IMG/VR virus record: IMGVR_UViG_3300049008_000029
Coordinates: 1 to 38,667 of that record
Source: a virus
DNA length: 38,667 nucleotides
Reading direction: 5' to 3' (one strand)
Below, in pieces: positions 3,026 through 25,816 of the stretch; position 1 is the first letter of the stretch, and the number at the start of each line of letters is the position of its first letter. The notes below the pieces were generated by a model that worked only from the letters and a program-made list of their open reading frames with translations, did no database searches and was not told where the DNA came from. Position numbers and translations under genes: made by a program.

Positions 3026-5494
3026 ATGCCTACCGAATTGATTCTCTATTTGGCCGTTGAATTTGCAACGTATACGGGTGCTTCTTCCTTAGTTGCCACA
3101 ATGGCTGCAACTTTTGCAGTATCGTTTGCCGCATCAACTCTTGTCACCCGAGTATTCGGCCAAGACCCACCAACTCAAGTTGATAGCGGTGTCCGTCAGC
3201 AAATCCCGCCTAGTTCGACCAATTCCCTGCCAGTGGTCTATGGCGATGCTTACCTTGGCGGCGTGTTTGTTGATGCTGTTCTAAGCATTGACCAAAAGAC
3301 AATGTATTACGTCTTGGCAATCTCCAACATTTCAACAAACGGCCAATTTAGTTTTGACACAACCAAGTTTTATTACGGCGACAGGTTGGTGACTTTTGAC
3401 ACTACAGACCTTACTAAAGTAATTTCCTTGACTGATGGTGTGCCTAATGTAGATACAAAGGTCAATGGGTATTTGTACATCAACTTGTACACATCCAATG
3501 CCGCTGGCACCATTACTAATGTCAATGGCACTCAAGCCCCAACCGTTGTAATGGGCGGCGCTGACATTGCAACAGCGCAGCAATGGCCTGCTACACATCG
3601 CCAGATGAACGGCCTTGCGTTTGCTATTGTCAAGATGGTCTACAGCCAATCGGCCAATACCACCAGCTTTAGCCCGTTGACATTTCATGTAGCGCATTAT
3701 CTCAATGGGGCAGGATGTGCGAAGCCTGGGGATGTCCTGCAAGACTATCTGGTTTCGCCGATCTACGGCGGCGCTGTCTTAAACGCAAATGTCAATGCTA
3801 CGACTTGCGCTAATCTCAACACCTATTCAGATGTCTTGCTGTCCTATACACCCAGCGGAGGCGGTACAGCGACTCAGCCACGCTATCGTATCAATGGCGT
3901 CTTAGACACAGGCCAGACGGTGCTAAACAACGTAGACAAGATTCTGACGGCCTGCGACTCTTGGTTGGCGTATCAATCCACTACGGGCCAGTGGTCGCCG
4001 GTTATTAATAAAGCAGAATCTAGTACTAACCCTTCTACTCAACAAATTGCGCAATACAATGCGGCTGCATCTCAAGTAATGAACATGATAATTGGTGTTA
4101 TACCTGTAGATTTATATTATGATTTAAATGGAGATGGTTTAATAACTTTAGCAGATGCAATTGGATTTTTAAACCTTGCGTCAGGAACGCCTCTTGGCTA
4201 CACTCCTAATCCAGCTTCTATATATACATATATATACAATATAAATTACAGTGATTTTGATGACACAACTATTCTGTCTGAGATCAAGATCACTGCGCAA
4301 GACCTGACGGCAAGCATCAACCAAATTGAGGTGTCTTACCCGTTCAAGGACAACAAGGATCAGCCGGCATTCATTTATCAGCAGATTCCTACGCTGTCGC
4401 TTTACCCCAATGAGCCAGTGAACAAGTTCACCACCAAGTTTGAGATGGTGAACAACTCAGTGCAGGCGGCGTATCTTGCCAATCGAATACTTTTGCAATC
4501 CAGGACTGACTTGATCGTAAACTTTTCAACAGCTTACCCAGGCATCCAGAACGATGCAGGCGATGTAATCACGATTACCAATGCCGACTACGGTTGGTCT
4601 GCAAAGCCTTTCCGGATTACCAAAATCCAAGAAGCGGCACTTGCTGATGGCAACCTTGGCGCTCAAATCACTGCAACCGAATACGATGCAACGGTCTATG
4701 CCAATCAGGCGATTACGGCAACAACGCCTGCGCCAGCCAATGGGGTAACCTCGCCGTATTTCTTTAGTGCCTTGGCAGCACCTACTATTGGCAACTACTT
4801 GCCTAACGCCAACCCGCCGACTTTTGCGGTGACTTGCGTGTTCCCAACCACTGGGCGCTGCACATCAGTAACGCTGTACTACACAACTTCAACAACGCCT
4901 ACTGCTACCGATTGGGCTGTTTGGGTTACACAGACATCAGCGGAAAACACTGCGTATACGCCTGGGTCAAGCATTGTGTTTAACAACATAATTTTGCCTA
5001 CAGCCAATTACTACTTTGCTTTTCAAGTCAGCAATGACATTGCAACATCAGCGCTGTCGGCTACAAGTGCAGTGACTAATTGGAACCCAGGGTCAAGTGG
5101 TGGGGTAGTAAATGGGTTTTCGCCAAATGTCATTGCTGCTAGGGCATTTGGAACTGGCACGGCAACCGCATTGTTGCGGTTTGCAAATGATGGAACTATT
5201 AAAGAACAAATTAACGGCGGCAGCGTTACGGTAATTGGCAATTGGTTTTTGCCAACAACTGCAAGCATTGGTGTAACCCCAGGCTATTGGCTTTTTGCTA
5301 CGCTTTCAAGCGGCGCATTGACTTCTGGGACTACAGGTAGTTGGGTCAAGATAGATGTTGATCGAGACTACACCAGAACCAGAACAACAATGGGATCAAT
5401 AGATGCCACTGTAGATTTTGCAATTTCAAGCGATTCTGCTGGCGCTACAATTCTTGGCTACGGCACAGGCTACCTATACGCAGAATTGTATTGA
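3026..5494 (+). CDS. Central tail hub / tip attachment protein, gpJ-like (822 aa)
   Basis: This large protein directly follows the tip genes and precedes the fibre, the place of lambda gpJ, which forms the trimeric hub and contacts the host receptor. The N-terminus has hydrophobic stretches at residues 1-45, followed by a QIPPSSTNSLPVVYG segment typical of the start of J-like hubs. The middle (about residues 410-560) has hub-like beta domains, and the C-terminus resembles fibronectin-like or lectin-like beta modules. Residues 366-377 form a dockerin/EF-hand-type loop with the pattern D-x-N-x-D-G-x-I-x-x-x-D. This loop lies in an A/T-rich DNA patch at about 4080-4255, unlike the flanks. Start ATG lies one base after the preceding stop. 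Confidence 0.85.
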   Translation: MPTELILYLAVEFATYTGASSLVATMAATFAVSFAASTLVTRVFGQDPPTQVDSGVRQQIPPSSTNSLPVVYGDAYLGGVFVDAVLSIDQKTMYYVLAISNISTNGQFSFDTTKFYYGDRLVTFDTTDLTKVISLTDGVPNVDTKVNGYLYINLYTSNAAGTITNVNGTQAPTVVMGGADIATAQQWPATHRQMNGLAFAIVKMVYSQSANTTSFSPLTFHVAHYLNGAGCAKPGDVLQDYLVSPIYGGAVLNANVNATTCANLNTYSDVLLSYTPSGGGTATQPRYRINGVLDTGQTVLNNVDKILTACDSWLAYQSTTGQWSPVINKAESSTNPSTQQIAQYNAAASQVMNMIIGVIPVDLYYDLNGDGLITLADAIGFLNLASGTPLGYTPNPASIYTYIYNINYSDFDDTTILSEIKITAQDLTASINQIEVSYPFKDNKDQPAFIYQQIPTLSLYPNEPVNKFTTKFEMVNNSVQAAYLANRILLQSRTDLIVNFSTAYPGIQNDAGDVITITNADYGWSAKPFRITKIQEAALADGNLGAQITATEYDATVYANQAITATTPAPANGVTSPYFFSALAAPTIGNYLPNANPPTFAVTCVFPTTGRCTSVTLYYTTSTTPTATDWAVWVTQTSAENTAYTPGSSIVFNNIILPTANYYFAFQVSNDIATSALSATSAVTNWNPGSSGGVVNGFSPNVIAARAFGTGTATALLRFANDGTIKEQINGGSVTVIGNWFLPTTASIGVTPGYWLFATLSSGALTSGTTGSWVKIDVDRDYTRTRTTMGSIDATVDFAISSDSAGATILGYGTGYLYAELY

Positions 5495-19802: not shown

Positions 19803-19982
19803 GTGAAAACAGAAGAAGCGATTGCCCACTACGGCGGCTTGAAGAAGCTTGCCGATGCCCTCGGGGTCTGGCCCCAAGTGATCTATGCCTGGGGAGCCTA
19901 TCCCCCTATGTCAAGACAGTACGAACTCGAAGTCAAAACAGCAGGATCACTGAAGGCAGAGCGCGATGATAAGCAAGATTGA
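19803..19982 (+). CDS. cro: P22 Cro-like repressor (59 aa, GTG start)
   Basis: A small helix-turn-helix protein of the P22 Cro family. The sequence IAHYGGLKKLADALGVWPQVIYAWG supplies the HTH and the C-terminus LEVKTAGSLK is very close to the LEIVTAGALK end of P22 Cro. The GTG start follows GGAATAAA. It should bind the divergent promoter region and shut down early transcription. It overlaps the primase gene by 17 bases. No CI-type repressor gene is found next to it or elsewhere in the window. Confidence 0.88.
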   Translation: MKTEEAIAHYGGLKKLADALGVWPQVIYAWGAYPPMSRQYELEVKTAGSLKAERDDKQD

Positions 19983-21852
19983 AGCAGCACTTACTTACGC
20001 ATCCTGGGGATGGCATGTTATCCCAGTCGTGCCAAATGGCAAGATCCCCGCTACCCAGCACGGTGTACGGGACGCCACTGTAGATGCCGAGCAGATAGCC
20101 CGGTGGTGGCACCAGAACCCAGACTACAACATTGGCATTGCGGCAGGGGCCATCTCGGGCATCATGGTGTTCGACATTGACCCGAGGAACGGTGGCGATA
20201 CGTCTTGGGATGAATGGACAAGCCAGTACGGCAGCGTCCCGGATGGGCCTATGCAACTCACCGCGGGCGGCGGGCAGCACCACATTGCAGTCAATGACGC
20301 AGAGATTAGGTCTTGCAAGCTTATCGACGGCGTAGACCTGTTGGCCGATGGCCGCTATTTTGTTGCCCATCCTTCGACTATCGAGGGCCGGTCATATGAG
20401 TGGGAGGCCTCGTCAGACCCAAGTGACGGCATCGCACCGTTTCGCATGCCCACGCAGTGGAAGGATGCCTATACGGTCAAGCGCAAGCCAACCAATGCAG
20501 TCCAGGCTACCGGGTCGAACTTGATCCAAGGTGGGCGCAACAATGGCTTGACTGCGCTCGGCGGGGCCATGCGGCGCTACGGCATGACCGAGGCAGAAAT
20601 CCTGGCAGCACTTGCTGTAGCGAATGAGACACGCTGCGAGATTCCGCTGCCATCGTCTGAGCTATCCCAGATTGTCCGGTCTGTCTGCCGGTATGAGCCT
20701 GAGAGCGACATCGCTGCGGACACAAGCATGGGGTCAGAAGCCGCTGAAGCGTTGCTGTCAGCAGTGAAGGCGTCGACACAGGATTATTTCTTCACCCGCG
20801 CAACGTCTTATTTGAGCCAGCCAGCACCGCTGAAGTGGATCATCAAAGGGTGGCTCCCCGATAGCTCGACAAGCATGGTTTACGGCGAGTCAGGCGTTGG
20901 TAAGACGTTTGTCACGCTCGACATGGCTTGCCACATCGCCGCAGGGATGCCTTGGCATGGACACAAGACCAAAGCGGGAATCGTGGTCTACATGGCCGGC
21001 GAGGGCAACTACGGTATCCGTCAGCGGGTCGCCGCATGGTGCAAGCATCACGACATCAATAGCCTAGATAACTTGCTCATCAGCAACAAGGCCATCGATG
21101 CCGACAACCCTGCCGCTGCCGCTCAGATACTGAATGCAGTCCATGAGATCACGACCGAGGAAGCGGTGGTCATCTTCATTGACACGGTGAATAACCACAT
21201 GTCAGGCGATGAGAATTCCGCAAAGGACACGCGAAACATGTTCAACGCCTGCAACATCGTCGCCAGGGCGCTCAATGCCGCTGTCTGCCTCAATCACCAT
21301 TCCGGCCATGCGGTGGACAGCAAGCAGCGGGCGCGAGGCTCAAGCGCTTGGAAGGCCAGCCTTGATGCGTCGATCTTGATCAACAAGCTGGACGGGTGTA
21401 TCGAGATTGTCTGCACCAAGATGAAGGACACAGAGGAGCCAACCCCCTTCTTCGGCAAGCTCACCTCGGTGCCACTTGGTTGGTTCGATGAGGACGGCGA
21501 GGAGATCAACGGGGCAGTCTTTGAGATCGAGGAGAACCCACCGGAGAGGCAGGAGAAGAAGGGCAAGGATCAATCCAAGAACATCCAAGACTTGGTTTCA
21601 GCTTGGTTTGCGTCCGGTTCTGAGGATCAAAACGATTCTCCATACATAACAAGGGATGCCCTGATTTCCTATTTTATTTCGAGTAAGGGATTATCAGAAG
21701 GCACCTCTAAATTCTATGCTCAACCTGGGTCAAAGGGTAAGTTTATATATAACCTACTGGAGGCAGAGATAATACAGGCGCACGACAAAGGGTGGCTGGT
21801 GGTGGAAGCGGCTACAGCGGCCTCGATGATGATGAGAAGGTCATCGAAGTAG
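19966..21852 (+). CDS. Prim-Pol / RepA-like helicase replication protein (628 aa)
   Basis: A bifunctional replication protein. Residues 1-165 form an archaeo-eukaryotic-type primase-polymerase domain: FDIDPRNGG gives the D-x-D metal site and GGGQHHIAV the second motif. A helical primase C-terminal segment follows (about 180-245). Residues 280-520 form a RecA-type helicase: Walker A GESGVGKT, Walker B VVIFIDTVN, and a SRGSS-like sensor in QRARGSSAWK. The gene starts inside cro with AAGG upstream of ATG, so it is co-transcribed with cro. By family it primes and unwinds at the phage origin, probably at the iterons directly downstream. Confidence 0.92.
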   Translation: MISKIEAALTYASWGWHVIPVVPNGKIPATQHGVRDATVDAEQIARWWHQNPDYNIGIAAGAISGIMVFDIDPRNGGDTSWDEWTSQYGSVPDGPMQLTAGGGQHHIAVNDAEIRSCKLIDGVDLLADGRYFVAHPSTIEGRSYEWEASSDPSDGIAPFRMPTQWKDAYTVKRKPTNAVQATGSNLIQGGRNNGLTALGGAMRRYGMTEAEILAALAVANETRCEIPLPSSELSQIVRSVCRYEPESDIAADTSMGSEAAEALLSAVKASTQDYFFTRATSYLSQPAPLKWIIKGWLPDSSTSMVYGESGVGKTFVTLDMACHIAAGMPWHGHKTKAGIVVYMAGEGNYGIRQRVAAWCKHHDINSLDNLLISNKAIDADNPAAAAQILNAVHEITTEEAVVIFIDTVNNHMSGDENSAKDTRNMFNACNIVARALNAAVCLNHHSGHAVDSKQRARGSSAWKASLDASILINKLDGCIEIVCTKMKDTEEPTPFFGKLTSVPLGWFDEDGEEINGAVFEIEENPPERQEKKGKDQSKNIQDLVSAWFASGSEDQNDSPYITRDALISYFISSKGLSEGTSKFYAQPGSKGKFIYNLLEAEIIQAHDKGWLVVEAATAASMMMRRSSK

Positions 21853-21963
21853 ACGATACAAACGATACGGTACGATACAAACGATACAAACGTATTGTTT
21901 GACAAGGCGAGGGATGACGATATAAACGATACAACCCCTTTAGGGGTGTATCGTATTGTATCG
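21853..21963. other. Iteron cluster, candidate replication origin
   Basis: ACGATAC occurs at 21853, 21862, 21872, 21881 and 21926, with inverted copies at 21948-21954 and 21958-21963 (the last lacks its final base). The first four are spaced 9, 10 and 9 bases, close to one helical turn. Within the cluster, 21926-21954 forms a hairpin: ACGATACA (plus one bulged A) and CCCC pair with GGGG and TGTATCGT around the loop TTTA. It has no U-run, so it is not a simple terminator. Its place right after the replication gene supports an origin. Confidence 0.65.
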
Positions 21964-22380
21964 CCCGATGTGCCAGAATTTTGTGCTGGACTAGGGAAAA
22001 CCCTAGAAGGTGCCTTTTGAGGCCAAAAGCAGCTTTTTCTGTGACATGTAGCAGAAAACGGGGAAATAATATAATAATAGTTACTATATTAAAATAATAT
22101 TCTGCGATTCTAAGAATGGCCCGTGCATTTATTCTGGAATTCCCGGCCAAAAATATTGGCTTTTGGAAAAATATTCCGCCAGCCAAAAGTGATTATTTTT
22201 CCGAGCCAATTTTTTTTTTTGAATTGATTGGTGGTCTATAGGAGGGGGGGTGCTGAAAAAAAAGGTGTTTTTTGGGGGGTAAACCCCTAGACCCCGATTT
22301 CAGATTGACGATGATTGTCAGAATGCGATGGATTGTGGGGGGTCTGGATCGGGTCGGTTCCCCTATGACGATGCATTGCC
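21964..22380. other. A/T-rich, hairpin-rich non-coding region
   Basis: No gene is supported here. It contains the perfect hairpin CTAGGG-AAAA-CCCTAG at 21991-22006, a highly A/T-rich stretch at about 22062-22105, a CTTTTGG/CCAAAAG inverted repeat at about 22162-22187, a run of ten or more T at 22210-22220 and G runs near 22242-22250, 22274-22279 and 22337-22342. The A/T-rich segment could be the unwinding element of the adjacent origin. Confidence 0.6.
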
Positions 22381-22815
22381 CAGGCTGACCCAGGCCGGCC
22401 CTGGTTGACCCAGGTCGTCTCAGGCTGACCCAGGCCGGCCCTGGTTGACCCAGGTCGTCTCAGGCTGACCCAGGCCGGCCCTGGTTGACCCAGGCCGTCT
22501 CAGGCTGACCCAGGCCGGCCCTGGTTGACCCAGGACGTCTCAGGCTGACCCAGGCCGGCCCTGGTTGACCCAGGTCGTCTCAGGCTGACCCAGGCCGGCC
22601 CTGGTTGACCCAGGTCGTCTCAGGCTGACCCAGGCCGGCCCTGGTTGACCCAGGTCGTCTCAGGCTGACCCAGGCCGGCCCTGGTTGACCCAGGCCGTCT
22701 CAGGCTGACCCAGGCCGGCCCTGGTTGACCCAGGCCGTCTCAGGCTGACCCAGGCCGGCCCTGGTTGACCCAGGTCGTCTCAGGCTGGCCCAGGCTGGCC
22801 CAGGTCGTCCCAGGC
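22381..22815. repeat. Tandem array 1: ten copies of a 40-bp unit with 10-bp internal period
   Basis: Ten complete 40-base units start at 22381, 22421, and so on to 22741, followed by a degenerate partial unit to 22815. Each unit is made of four decamers, three of which begin CAGG and one CTGG. The only variation among the ten units that I can see is one base at position 34 of the unit (T in units 1, 2, 5, 6, 7, 10; C in 3, 8, 9; A in 4). Each unit contains an FseI site GGCCGGCC, a CCAGG/CCTGG short inverted repeat and a GACC-CA-GGTC inverted repeat. There are no spacers and no open gene. Confidence 0.98.
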
Positions 22816-22876
22816 AAAACATAGAATCAGTCCTGGCAAACCTGAAGTGAGCACTCACTTACATCATAGATAAAAT

Positions 22877-22906
22877 AAAACCCGGAATATATCCGGGCTT
22901 TTCTTT
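22877..22906. terminator. Bidirectional rho-independent terminator
   Basis: The stem CCCGGA/TCCGGG (22881-22886 and 22892-22897) with loop ATATA is followed on the plus strand by TTTTCTTT and on the minus strand by TTTTATTTTAT. It ends the leftward cassette two to three dozen bases after its last stop codon and would also stop rightward transcripts leaving the array. Confidence 0.9.
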
Positions 22907-22908
22907 AT

Positions 22909-23076
22909 TTACAGTGAATCAAGCAAAACCCAAAACCTATCCGGGTTTATTGCTTTCCATATTGTTTGATCATCAATTGATCTTATGATAATGTGATTCG
23001 AGCCAATCGATTCTATTACCCACAATATGCCTGAATCAGAATCAATTAATGTTACCCCGATGTTACCGGGTTTCAT
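22909..23076 (-). CDS. Small cassette protein (55 aa)
   Basis: Starts MKPGNIGVTLIDSDSGILWV and contains ESIGSNHIIIRSID, a beta-rich fold with Trp-anchored turns. Its ATG overlaps the stop of the mini-membrane gene upstream (ATGA) and AAGGTG lies eight bases before it. It is the last gene before the bidirectional terminator. The A/T-rich codon choice matches the rest of the cassette and differs from the phage core. Function unknown. Confidence 0.75.
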   Translation of the reverse strand: MKPGNIGVTLIDSDSGILWVIESIGSNHIIIRSIDDQTIWKAINPDRFWVLLDSL

Positions 23077-23159
23077 TCTACCCACCTTGCAAAATATATA
23101 ATAAATGGTAACCCGATCAATATTGCCGATATAACGGCATCAATAATTATTTTACGCAT
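23073..23159 (-). CDS. Mini membrane peptide (28 aa)
   Basis: A single predicted transmembrane helix (IIIDAVISAILIGLPFIIYF) with a basic start (MRK) and RWVE end. It overlaps the upstream Gp88-like gene by 8 bases and the downstream gene by ATGA, which argues that it is translated. A peptide this small could act on the membrane or on another membrane protein; there is no motif. Confidence 0.55.
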   Translation of the reverse strand: MRKIIIDAVISAILIGLPFIIYFARWVE

Positions 23160-23910
23160 AATTTACCCCCTTATGTTGCACGAAACCTGACATATCACGT
23201 TTACCGCGTCCCTTTGCATACAATGCAACGACGACCGTTTTAGGCTCAATATGCCGGACATCGGTATTGTCGCCGTCGATTACCTTATATCCCCTAAACG
23301 TCAACGGTATATCGCTCCGCTTATGAAATACAACAGCTGTCCTAGAATTATAGGGATTTAATAACCCCTTATGCGTTATCTTAATTGGAGTAATTCCACT
23401 AAAACTATACGTCAAATCATAATTATCATTATACTTTCCCGCTAAATTGCGGGAAGGGTGTTTAGTGTAGTCGTAGAACTGAACATCGGGAAACAATTGG
23501 AATATATTATTTCCGTCAATTACGGGAATATTTTCATAAGCAATATCCGATGTTCCATTTGGCCTAACTAAGGGTGTCATATTGCGCTTAGCTGCGCTTC
23601 GCTGCAGAGACCAAATATCGGCGCACATTGAAAGCATGAAAGCTTGTTGGTGCTGTTTGAAATAGTCTGTTTTGGCTTGTCGTTGACGTTGAATTTTAGG
23701 GAAAGCACCGCGTCCGGCGGTATTCAAGCATGGCGCCATACATCCAGCAAGCTTTGCATGAGGGCATATTTTATCGTCTGGGACTAAATAACAAATCGCC
23801 GTTAACATCTTTAGTTTTTCACCCTTTATTGTTTTAGAACTGGCTGTGCCCAATATGGGACGATATTGTAGGTTTAAGGATTTGATAATTGCTTTATAAG
23901 GGTTGCGCAT
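23152..23910 (-). CDS. Gp88-like phage protein (252 aa)
   Basis: The pattern LTAICYLVPDDKICPHAKLAG followed by CMAPCLNTAGRG, then QRARQAKT-like basic helix, FMLSMCADIWSL and RPNGTSDIAYENIP is one I recognise from a family of phage accessory proteins related to mycobacteriophage gene product 88. Conserved Cys at about residues 49, 57 and 61 could bind a metal or Fe-S centre. The role of the family is not known to me. It is the largest gene of the A/T-rich cassette, with AGGA about ten bases before the start. Confidence 0.7.
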   Translation of the reverse strand: MRNPYKAIIKSLNLQYRPILGTASSKTIKGEKLKMLTAICYLVPDDKICPHAKLAGCMAPCLNTAGRGAFPKIQRQRQAKTDYFKQHQQAFMLSMCADIWSLQRSAAKRNMTPLVRPNGTSDIAYENIPVIDGNNIFQLFPDVQFYDYTKHPSRNLAGKYNDNYDLTYSFSGITPIKITHKGLLNPYNSRTAVVFHKRSDIPLTFRGYKVIDGDNTDVRHIEPKTVVVALYAKGRGKRDMSGFVQHKGVNYA

Positions 23911-23927
23911 GATATGGTTTCCTAGAA

Positions 23928-24122
23928 TTAATAAGTAAAGCCGATAAACACAATAGAATCTGATTGTCGGAATATTTCCCGATTAATATCGTCAGCACTT
24001 GAAAGGCTATAAGTATTTGTTAACCAATCATATCCCCCCTTTATCCATATTGGCGCAGAATCGGTATTCCGCAATTTGACGTATTCACCCGATGGGCAAA
24101 GCTTAAGGGTAGTTTGTTGCAT
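23928..24122 (-). CDS. Small cassette protein (64 aa)
   Basis: Starts MQQTTLKLCPSGEYVKLRNT and ends SDSIVFIGFTY, a short beta-rich protein. Translation is set by AAGGAC about ten bases upstream, part of a 23-base sequence that is exactly repeated in front of the next upstream gene. It lies 17 bases ahead of the Gp88-like gene. Such short companions often precede Gp88-type genes, but the role is unknown. Confidence 0.7.
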   Translation of the reverse strand: MQQTTLKLCPSGEYVKLRNTDSAPIWIKGGYDWLTNTYSLSSADDINREIFRQSDSIVFIGFTY

Positions 24123-24124
24123 AA

Positions 24125-24147
24125 TATATTGTCCTTAGTTTAAATTA
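24125..24147 (-). repeat. Repeated leader / ribosome-binding module, copy 1
   Basis: Bases 24125-24147 and 24298-24320 are identical over 23 positions. Each copy carries the AAGGAC ribosome-binding site on the minus strand and spans the stop of the upstream gene, so both downstream genes share the same translation-initiation context. Confidence 0.9.
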
Positions 24148-24297
24148 AATTGTATAAAATGCATTCAGCCATTGAATGGCTTCTTTTCTTGTTTTAAACT
24201 CACGGTCAATTTTTCCGTGAGAATCAATAACGCGCCAAACAACAATATCATTGCATCGTCCGCATGATTCAGAAAATCTTAGAATGTAGGGTTTCAT
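24145..24297 (-). CDS. Small cassette protein with CxxC (50 aa)
   Basis: Starts MKPYILRFSESCGRCNDIVV and ends EAIQWLNAFYTI. Strands followed by a TRKEAIQWL helix give the look of a small DUF-type fold, and the CGRC knuckle may bind metal or form a disulfide. The ribosome-binding site lies in the repeated 23-base module. Confidence 0.75.
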   Translation of the reverse strand: MKPYILRFSESCGRCNDIVVWRVIDSHGKIDREFKTRKEAIQWLNAFYTI

Positions 24298-24320
24298 TAT
24301 ATTGTCCTTAGTTTAAATTA
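24298..24320 (-). repeat. Repeated leader / ribosome-binding module, copy 2
   Basis: Identical to 24125-24147. Placed immediately upstream of the ATG at 24297, and containing the last bases of the upstream gene. Confidence 0.9.
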
Positions 24321-24587
24321 GAGCTCAATCCAGCGCATGCTATAACGGTCTTCATAATCTCCGCCAAATGCTATCTTAATCCGGCAGCATATATCCTCTT
24401 CTGATCCGTTGATTATAATAATACCCTTTCCTAAAAAACATCCAAACAATTTACGCTGTTCAAATGCTGACATCCTACCCTTATAAATACCGCATACATT
24501 ACCCGTATTTTCAAGCAAGAAAAATGCAAGGTTTATTACGATGTCGTCTTTTGACATTGTGGATTTTTCACGTTCTATTAATCGCAT
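24318..24587 (-). CDS. First gene of the A/T-rich cassette (89 aa)
   Basis: I choose the ATG at 24587 because AGGGA lies seven bases upstream; an ATG at 24608 is possible (96 residues). The sequence runs MRLIEREKSTMSKDD, then hydrophobic IVINLAFFLLENTGN, and KIIIINGSEEDICCRIKIAFGG near the end. Much of it looks like alternating helix and strand. A longer open frame runs upstream through array 2 but there is no reason to think it is translated. No recognised domain. Confidence 0.65.
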   Translation of the reverse strand: MRLIEREKSTMSKDDIVINLAFFLLENTGNVCGIYKGRMSAFEQRKLFGCFLGKGIIIINGSEEDICCRIKIAFGGDYEDRYSMRWIEL

Positions 24588-24631
24588 GATATTTTCCCTG
24601 ATTTGCATCGATGCCCTATGCGTCGACAATG

Positions 24632-24662
24632 CATTGTGACCAGTCACAATGGGCAATCTATA
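24632..24662 (-). promoter_or_regulatory. Cassette promoter with palindromic operator
   Basis: A near-perfect inverted repeat, CATTGTGAC-CA-GTCACAATG (24632-24651), lies just downstream of TATAGA read on the minus strand (24662-24657). A start near 24650 would place the operator over the first transcribed bases. The -35 is weak. Two copies of the palindrome CAATGCATTG (24627-24636 and 24685-24694) flank this site. Confidence 0.45.
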
Positions 24663-24714
24663 GGTGTTTACCCTAGGGTTGACGCAATGCATTGTTATTA
24701 GTGCGAGACCTGTC

Positions 24715-25035
24715 CAGGCAGCACCCAGGCAGCACCCAGGCAGCACCCAGGCAGCACCCAGGCAGACCCAGGCAGCATCCAGGCAGACCCAGGCAGCATC
24801 CAGGCAGCACCCAGGCAGACCCAGGCAGCATCCAGGCAGCATCCAGGCAGACCCAGGCAGCATCCAGGCAGCATCCAGGCAGACCCAGGCAGCATCCAGG
24901 CAGACCCAGGCAGCATCCAGGCAGCATCCAGGCAGCACCCAGGCAGACCCAGGCAGCATCCAGGCAGCATCCAGGCAGCATCCAGGCAGCATCCAGGCAG
25001 ACCCAGGCAGCATCCAGGCAGACCCAGGCAGCACC
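24715..25035. repeat. Tandem array 2: 30 CAGGCAG units of 10 or 11 bp
   Basis: Thirty uninterrupted units all beginning CAGGCAG: seven of the form CAGGCAGCACC, fourteen CAGGCAGCATC (both 11 bases) and nine CAGGCAGACC (10 bases), in a non-regular order. The last unit is followed by CTGGG, giving a small inverted end. The arrangement mirrors the CAGG decamers of array 1. Long stop-free frames cross the array on both strands only because the unit lacks stop codons. Confidence 0.98.
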
Positions 25036-25258
25036 CTGGGCACGCCCAAAATCAGCATCCCATGCCATACCCCATTTCCCACTTTGCCCCTCAAAAGCGC
25101 ATTAAAAGCCATCGACCGACCCCCAAAACGGTAAAAAAACCCACTTTTGACCCGATTTTGATCGTTTTAGAACTAAAATGATTCGGCGCCGTCTGAGAGC
25201 ACGCGCGGGGACAATTTCCCGCTATTCCTATCCCAGACCCTCCATTAACGGATGGGAG
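25036..25258. other. Non-coding gap between array 2 and the late operon
   Basis: No gene is supported. A/T-rich stretches near 25130-25185 contain TTGACC (25147) and TAAAAT (25174) but with about 20 bases between them, too far for a good promoter. A late promoter may lie here but cannot be pointed to with confidence. Confidence 0.5.
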
Positions 25259-25299
25259 TTGCACAAGTTGCACAAGTTGCACATGTGCATGTTGCACAA
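25259..25299. repeat. TTGCACA direct repeats with internal palindrome
   Basis: TTGCACA occurs at 25259, 25268, 25277 and 25292; the first three are spaced exactly 9 bases. Positions 25278-25289 form the perfect palindrome TGCACATGTGCA. The cluster lies immediately upstream of the HNH gene start and looks like a protein-binding site controlling the late operon or marking the packaging region. Confidence 0.75.
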
Positions 25300-25306
25300 T
25301 GACGGT

Positions 25307-25816
25307 ATGCCAAGCTTCCCAACCACCCAATGCGGCCAAACCCGGTGCAAAAACCCAGCGGCCAAGGGCAAATCGCTATGCGTCGAGCATGCCCCGACGA
25401 TTAAGCGCACCGAGGAACGTATCAAGGCGAACGCCAAATACAACAGTTCTGCCTGGGATTCGATACGTATGCGACAATTGTCCCTGTCGCCGCTTTGTCA
25501 GGCCTGTAAGCAGACCGGGCAAATTACCCTGGCGGCACATGTTGACCATGTCTTCCCGTGGCAGCATATTGGCCCTGCGGCATTTCGCAGGAACCTGTTT
25601 CAAAGCCTGTGCGCTAGGTGCCACGGGGTTAAGTCATCATATGAATTGAAGGGTATTTACCGGCATTACACCGATGCTGGTATCCTTGAATACAAGACAA
25701 CTGATTACCAAGGAGTCATCCATGCGTACACCACCGCGCCACATTATCCGGATACTGCAAGAACCAGATACCTGGAATCCGCAGACTTTCGAGACCGCAA
25801 TACGAAACGAAGTTGA
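25307..25816 (+). CDS. HNH endonuclease, packaging-associated (169 aa)
   Basis: An HNH nuclease with N-terminal Cys knuckles (CGQTRC and CVEH) and a full HNH core: CQAC at residues 64-67, HVDH at 78-81, Asn96, and CARCH at 102-106. In HK97-type phages an HNH protein next to the terminase is required for cos cleavage and packaging, so that role is expected here. I choose ATG 25307; the frame is open from 25178 and alternative ATGs at 25283 and 25289 cannot be excluded because no strong ribosome-binding site is present. The 3' end overlaps the small terminase gene by 95 bases. Confidence 0.9.
   Translation: MPSFPTTQCGQTRCKNPAAKGKSLCVEHAPTIKRTEERIKANAKYNSSAWDSIRMRQLSLSPLCQACKQTGQITLAAHVDHVFPWQHIGPAAFRRNLFQSLCARCHGVKSSYELKGIYRHYTDAGILEYKTTDYQGVIHAYTTAPHYPDTARTRYLESADFRDRNTKRS

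Follow-up and report, generated by a model that had tools for sequence, protein, structure and literature searches.

A 40-bp tandem array beside the putative replication origin of a probably virulent phage as a likely young, lineage-specific minisatellite

Bacterial and phage minisatellites (VNTR loci) consist of near-identical units of tens of bases repeated head to tail, and the repeat analysed here, array 1, resembles them in this respect as well as in its decayed edge, its higher-order periodicity, its lineage specificity and its position in a noncoding spacer; the copy number of VNTR loci varies in populations, whereas array 1 is known here from one genome. In phage T7, the short repeats SRL and SRR, with units of ~7 bp, lie beside the terminal repeats. 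A second noncoding array of short tandem repeats in our phage, array 2, is similarly placed, ~165 bp from the putative cos end, but the phage is of the cos type, array 1 is located 2.4 kb from that end, and the repeat unit is unrelated. The partition sites sopC of the F plasmid and parC of R1 are built of about a dozen 43-bp units, or of 11-bp iterons, in tandem; our two arrays share this tandem organization, but they are unconserved sites, and no partition or lysogeny gene was recognised with them. Iteron origins of the PrimPol/RepA type are a further point of reference, as array 1 lies 410 bp from one such putative origin, but outside its conserved part. The literature on T7 short repeats and phage minisatellites yielded nothing directly on point.

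The window, i.e. the whole stretch of 38,667 nucleotides that was analysed, is the entire virus record. Its two ends share ~125 bp, as those of a circular assembly would, except that the first nine bases do not match. The genome carries packaging, portal, head and tail genes, the closest named terminase being that of Methylophilaceae phage P19250A (60%). Neither an integrase nor any other lysogeny gene was found among the proteins scanned (some small ORFs fell outside the scan), so the phage is probably virulent. Its replication module combines a PrimPol/PriCT/RepA-like primase-helicase with Sak4, a Cas4-type exonuclease and a helicase. Array 1 sits in a convergent gap: on one side are the primase gene and its putative iteron origin, on the other a block of small leftward genes that is the 1.9-kb stretch of lowest GC (0 of 321 other windows along the sequence are as low); array 2 lies in the divergent spacer at the opposite end of this block (Table 1).

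Table 1. Coordinates of array 1 and surrounding features in the window
Feature	Position	Strand	Description
PrimPol + PriCT + RepA-like AAA_25 primase-helicase gene	19966..21852	+	Pfam PF09250, PF08708, PF13481; PHROG 906 and others; upstream of array 1
Putative replication origin	21853..21970		ACGATACAA iterons, conserved GACAAGGCGAGG core, inverted iterons around ACCCCTTTAGGGGT hairpin
Array 1	22381..22815		Ten 40-bp units and a decayed eleventh edge unit (22781-22815)
AT-rich block between arrays	22816..24713	-	GC 0.385 vs 0.507; GP88 (23152-23910) and small proteins
Intrinsic-terminator-like hairpin, bidirectional	22877..22901		Just right of array 1
Array 2	24714..25036		Thirty 10/11-bp units CCAGGCAGCAC / CCAGGCAGCAT / CCAGGCAGAC; 32-bp higher-order period
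HNH endonuclease gene, packaging module	25178..25816	+	PF01844; PHROG 144
Putative cos site	25200..25215		AGCACGCGCGGG|GACAATTTCCC; coinciding contig starts of relatives

Laid in register, units 1-10 of array 1 differ at base 34 only, which reads T,T,C,A,T,T,T,C,C,T; this agrees fully with the preliminary description of ten 40-bp units alike save for T, C or A at this position. TRF assigned 10.9 copies of a 40-bp unit to positions 22381-22814, with 97% match and a score of 805. Every complete unit is composed of four decamers, CAGGCTGACC CAGGCCGGCC CTGGTTGACC CAGGTCGTCT, of the type CWGGNNGNCY, and the edge unit has decayed to CAGGCTGGCC CAGGCTGGCC CAGGTCGTCC CAGG. Shuffling predicts 5.5 copies of the motif CAGGNNGNCC, whereas the window contains 34, a count far beyond chance, with 32 of them falling inside arrays 1 and 2. 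Head-to-tail arrangement and high identity thus place the array among minisatellite or VNTR units (roughly 10-100 bp). As its longest exact internal repeat (154 bp) exceeds common short reads and would defeat their assembly, the copy number is uncertain, presuming short-read sequencing of the window. No ORF uses array 1 as a gene, and coding is ruled out by a unit length that is not a multiple of three, by TGA stops on one strand and by a unit devoid of start codons on the other. A CRISPR array is likewise excluded, the units being directly adjacent and alike, with no unique spacers, as is a known RNA, given that the window had no Rfam match and that no tRNA was found.

The same face of the helix had been suggested to recur every turn, permitting cooperative protein binding along one side of the DNA. 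A step of 10.0 bp relative to 10.5 bp per turn entails a drift of ~17 degrees per decamer and ~737 degrees over array 1, i.e. two full turns, so that one helical face is maintained locally, but not array-wide. The unit step of array 2 is 10.73 bp, unlike that of array 1, and in other phages the periods of the arrays 5' of GP88 range from 7 to 25 bp with no preference for 10, which rules out phasing as a general rule; cooperative binding on one face is thus left unsupported. Of the palindromic elements noted earlier, CCAGG...CCTGG is indeed found in all units, but GACC-CA-GGTC only in those with T at base 34, and the DNA hairpins are no stronger than in shuffles (z ~-0.6 for two units as single-stranded DNA). 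A structured RNA, proposed as the other possible purpose, finds no clear support either: whole array 1 as RNA is mildly more stable than shuffles (z -2.3), and array 2 folds worse than shuffles (z +3.5) though built of similar motifs.

We read the iteron cluster after the primase gene as the origin because its layout recurs, with other iteron sequences, directly 3' of the primase gene in those relatives that were examined, MW202867 among them; its DNA fold z is -4.7. The conserved layout beside an initiator gene is a property of this cluster and not of array 1, and relatives have the origin without an array, ruling out array 1 as part of it. In primase-module relatives whose contigs continue, no array directly follows the origin. 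A search of genome contigs found no primase relatives. The iteron sequence varies by lineage (L007-L034, L170), with ACGATACAA, ACTGGGACAA, GGTAACA and GGGAACT among the forms, while layout and a GACAAGGCGAGG-like core are constant, and these origins would provide a natural set for studying initiator-iteron co-evolution. At the other end of the block, many contigs of terminase relatives (L036-L115) begin at the homologous position GTCAATTTC..., L036 exactly at 25210, and on this basis we place cos at ~25200-25210. Array 1, distant from cos and unconserved, is ruled out as a packaging site.

Several packaging-module relatives display the same order of rightward genes, convergent junction, leftward small genes, divergent spacer and HNH/cos. 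Their convergent junctions, ~180-330 bp long (approximate lengths, as the gene maps come from a simple ORF caller), have no arrays. In one of the packaging-module relatives, L063, a degenerate CCTGCC-type array, GC-rich and C-rich, occupies the same convergent junction (4740-4980). The window's repeats are absent from every relative whose matching gaps were readable, the contigs of the closest relatives ending before array 1; among the relatives that can be read at this site, the locus is either empty or occupied by another array, as is typical of a minisatellite. The place of array 2, in the divergent spacer left of HNH, is taken in G002, G003, L251 and L252 by a cluster of 5-7 DnaA-box-like 9-mers, which suggests a different, DnaA-type origin in these genomes. 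The TTGCACA repeats of the window (25252-25306) are missing from L036, which is 95.7% identical, a difference that points, at the level of sequence comparison, to ongoing gain or loss of short repeats in this lineage.

Beyond these relatives, the 40-bp unit has no copy in the phage records searched, and the only matches among 2.9 million viral contigs are short arrays of decamers in unrelated phages; GTDB genomes lack a 24-mer of the unit, ruling out a host-derived repeat. Other 11-mer arrays are located near packaging genes in L019 and in the unrelated L168/L169, the L019-type array not being found in other contigs. The unrelated phage L168/L169 has five different noncoding tandem arrays with units of 11, 24, 22, 20 and 19 bp, and its 11-mer CAGCATCCAGG, directly after a TerS-like gene, is close to the array 2 unit. 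Among GP88 phages (L171-L222), arrays of unrelated units cluster 250-850 bp 5' of GP88 (15 of 27 arrays), a clustering that may only reflect the presence of spacer DNA there. Since unlike arrays recur in the spacers of relatives and other phages, such spacers tolerate arrays of which neither unit sequence nor period is conserved.

We consider it probable (about 0.66) that array 1 represents a noncoding minisatellite of recent, lineage-specific origin and that neither array needs a specific function, with array 2, under this joint explanation, as a parallel case in the divergent spacer at the far end of the same block. Recent expansion or homogenisation, already proposed in the preliminary description, is well supported, because the uniform core, the decayed edge and the hierarchy of decamers within 40-mers match slippage or unequal exchange; the lack of a copy in the readable spacers of relatives supports it as well. 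A decamer of the CAGGCTGRCC form would have duplicated in tandem first, as indicated by the 10-bp periodicity and by a pure decamer repeat that remains at the right-hand edge; thereafter, four decamers that had drifted apart would have become the 40-bp unit, copied about ten times. Replication slippage, or unequal or single-strand-annealing recombination, may have kept the units uniform, with the phage-encoded Sak4-like annealing protein and the Cas4-type exonuclease as candidate enzymes. The array would have survived in one of the few gaps of a compact genome in which added DNA does no harm, between the origin and the two-way terminator, where rightward primase transcription presumably meets leftward transcription of the early block. 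Two points weigh against this explanation: the nearest relatives' contigs stop short of array 1, and the block's two ends carry CAGG-type decamers that resemble each other and point the same way, which could mean a shared ligand. A 9/10 decamer match between the arrays arises in 12-18% of shuffles, however, and a longer 14/15 match is inflated by the periodic nature of the repeats themselves, so that a shared origin of the two arrays is suggestive yet not significant at the decamer level.

In one rival view, the arrays are cis sites, at which a phage or host protein would bind each decamer and spread along the arrays; it would thereby mark the early block at its two ends, or else the origin or the end near cos. 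The relatedness and common orientation of the decamers, their 10/10.7-bp spacing and the location of the arrays at both borders of the block, beside origin and cos, would fit this idea. Yet such sites are missing from relatives that share the origin or the cos module, the block between the arrays contains no recognisable DNA-binding or partition gene, and the spacing of array 1 loses the helical face along the array, making protein-bound cis sites unlikely in our judgement. No gene for a ParA, ParB, ParR or SopB partition protein was found among the neighbouring proteins scanned. That the CAGG-decamer arrays form a matched pair of protein-bound boundary sites, invented in this lineage and controlling transcription, replication or cos-end genome entry, has but a slim chance of being correct.

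Improbable, too, is a role as transcription boundary, according to which array 1 would form the 3' end of the primase message and, together with the adjacent terminator, stop or shield convergent transcription, while array 2, C-rich and unstructured, may be a Rho loading region. The arrays do sit at a convergent and a divergent junction, the hairpin beside array 1 resembles a terminator in both directions, the RNA fold of array 1 is mildly stable, and the C/G ratio of array 2 (1.43, 97th percentile) goes along with its poor folding; the C-rich array of L063 lies at the same kind of junction. But the opposite folding of the two arrays does not permit a single RNA mechanism for both, the C/G ratio of array 1 is only 1.17, and relatives manage without an array.

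The extremely low GC content of the block, its direct-orientation flanking arrays and the lack of a GP88 match in packaging-module relatives would fit a role of the arrays as recombination joints, i.e. homologous ends for entry or loss of the AT-rich GP88 block. This is very improbable, as the arrays match at only ~9/10 bases per decamer and a homologue of the block gene at 23928-24122 occupies the corresponding position, beside HNH and on the minus strand, in L251 and L252, which have no array there, from which we infer that part of the block predates the arrays. Finally, although the 154-bp repeat would challenge short reads, the creation of array 1 or its length by the assembler is hardly credible: collapse or looping of a repeat would not give rise to the sequence information present in the three base-34 alleles and the decayed edge, and the unit contains distinct decamers.

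Overall, array 1 is best regarded as an ordinary young phage-spacer minisatellite with a small chance of a cis-acting role. Compact phage genomes can accordingly be seen as able to grow new tandem DNA at operon junctions, and such arrays are likely break points in phage assemblies. Should the arrays be true bound sites, they would represent a newly arisen control element with a traceable origin.
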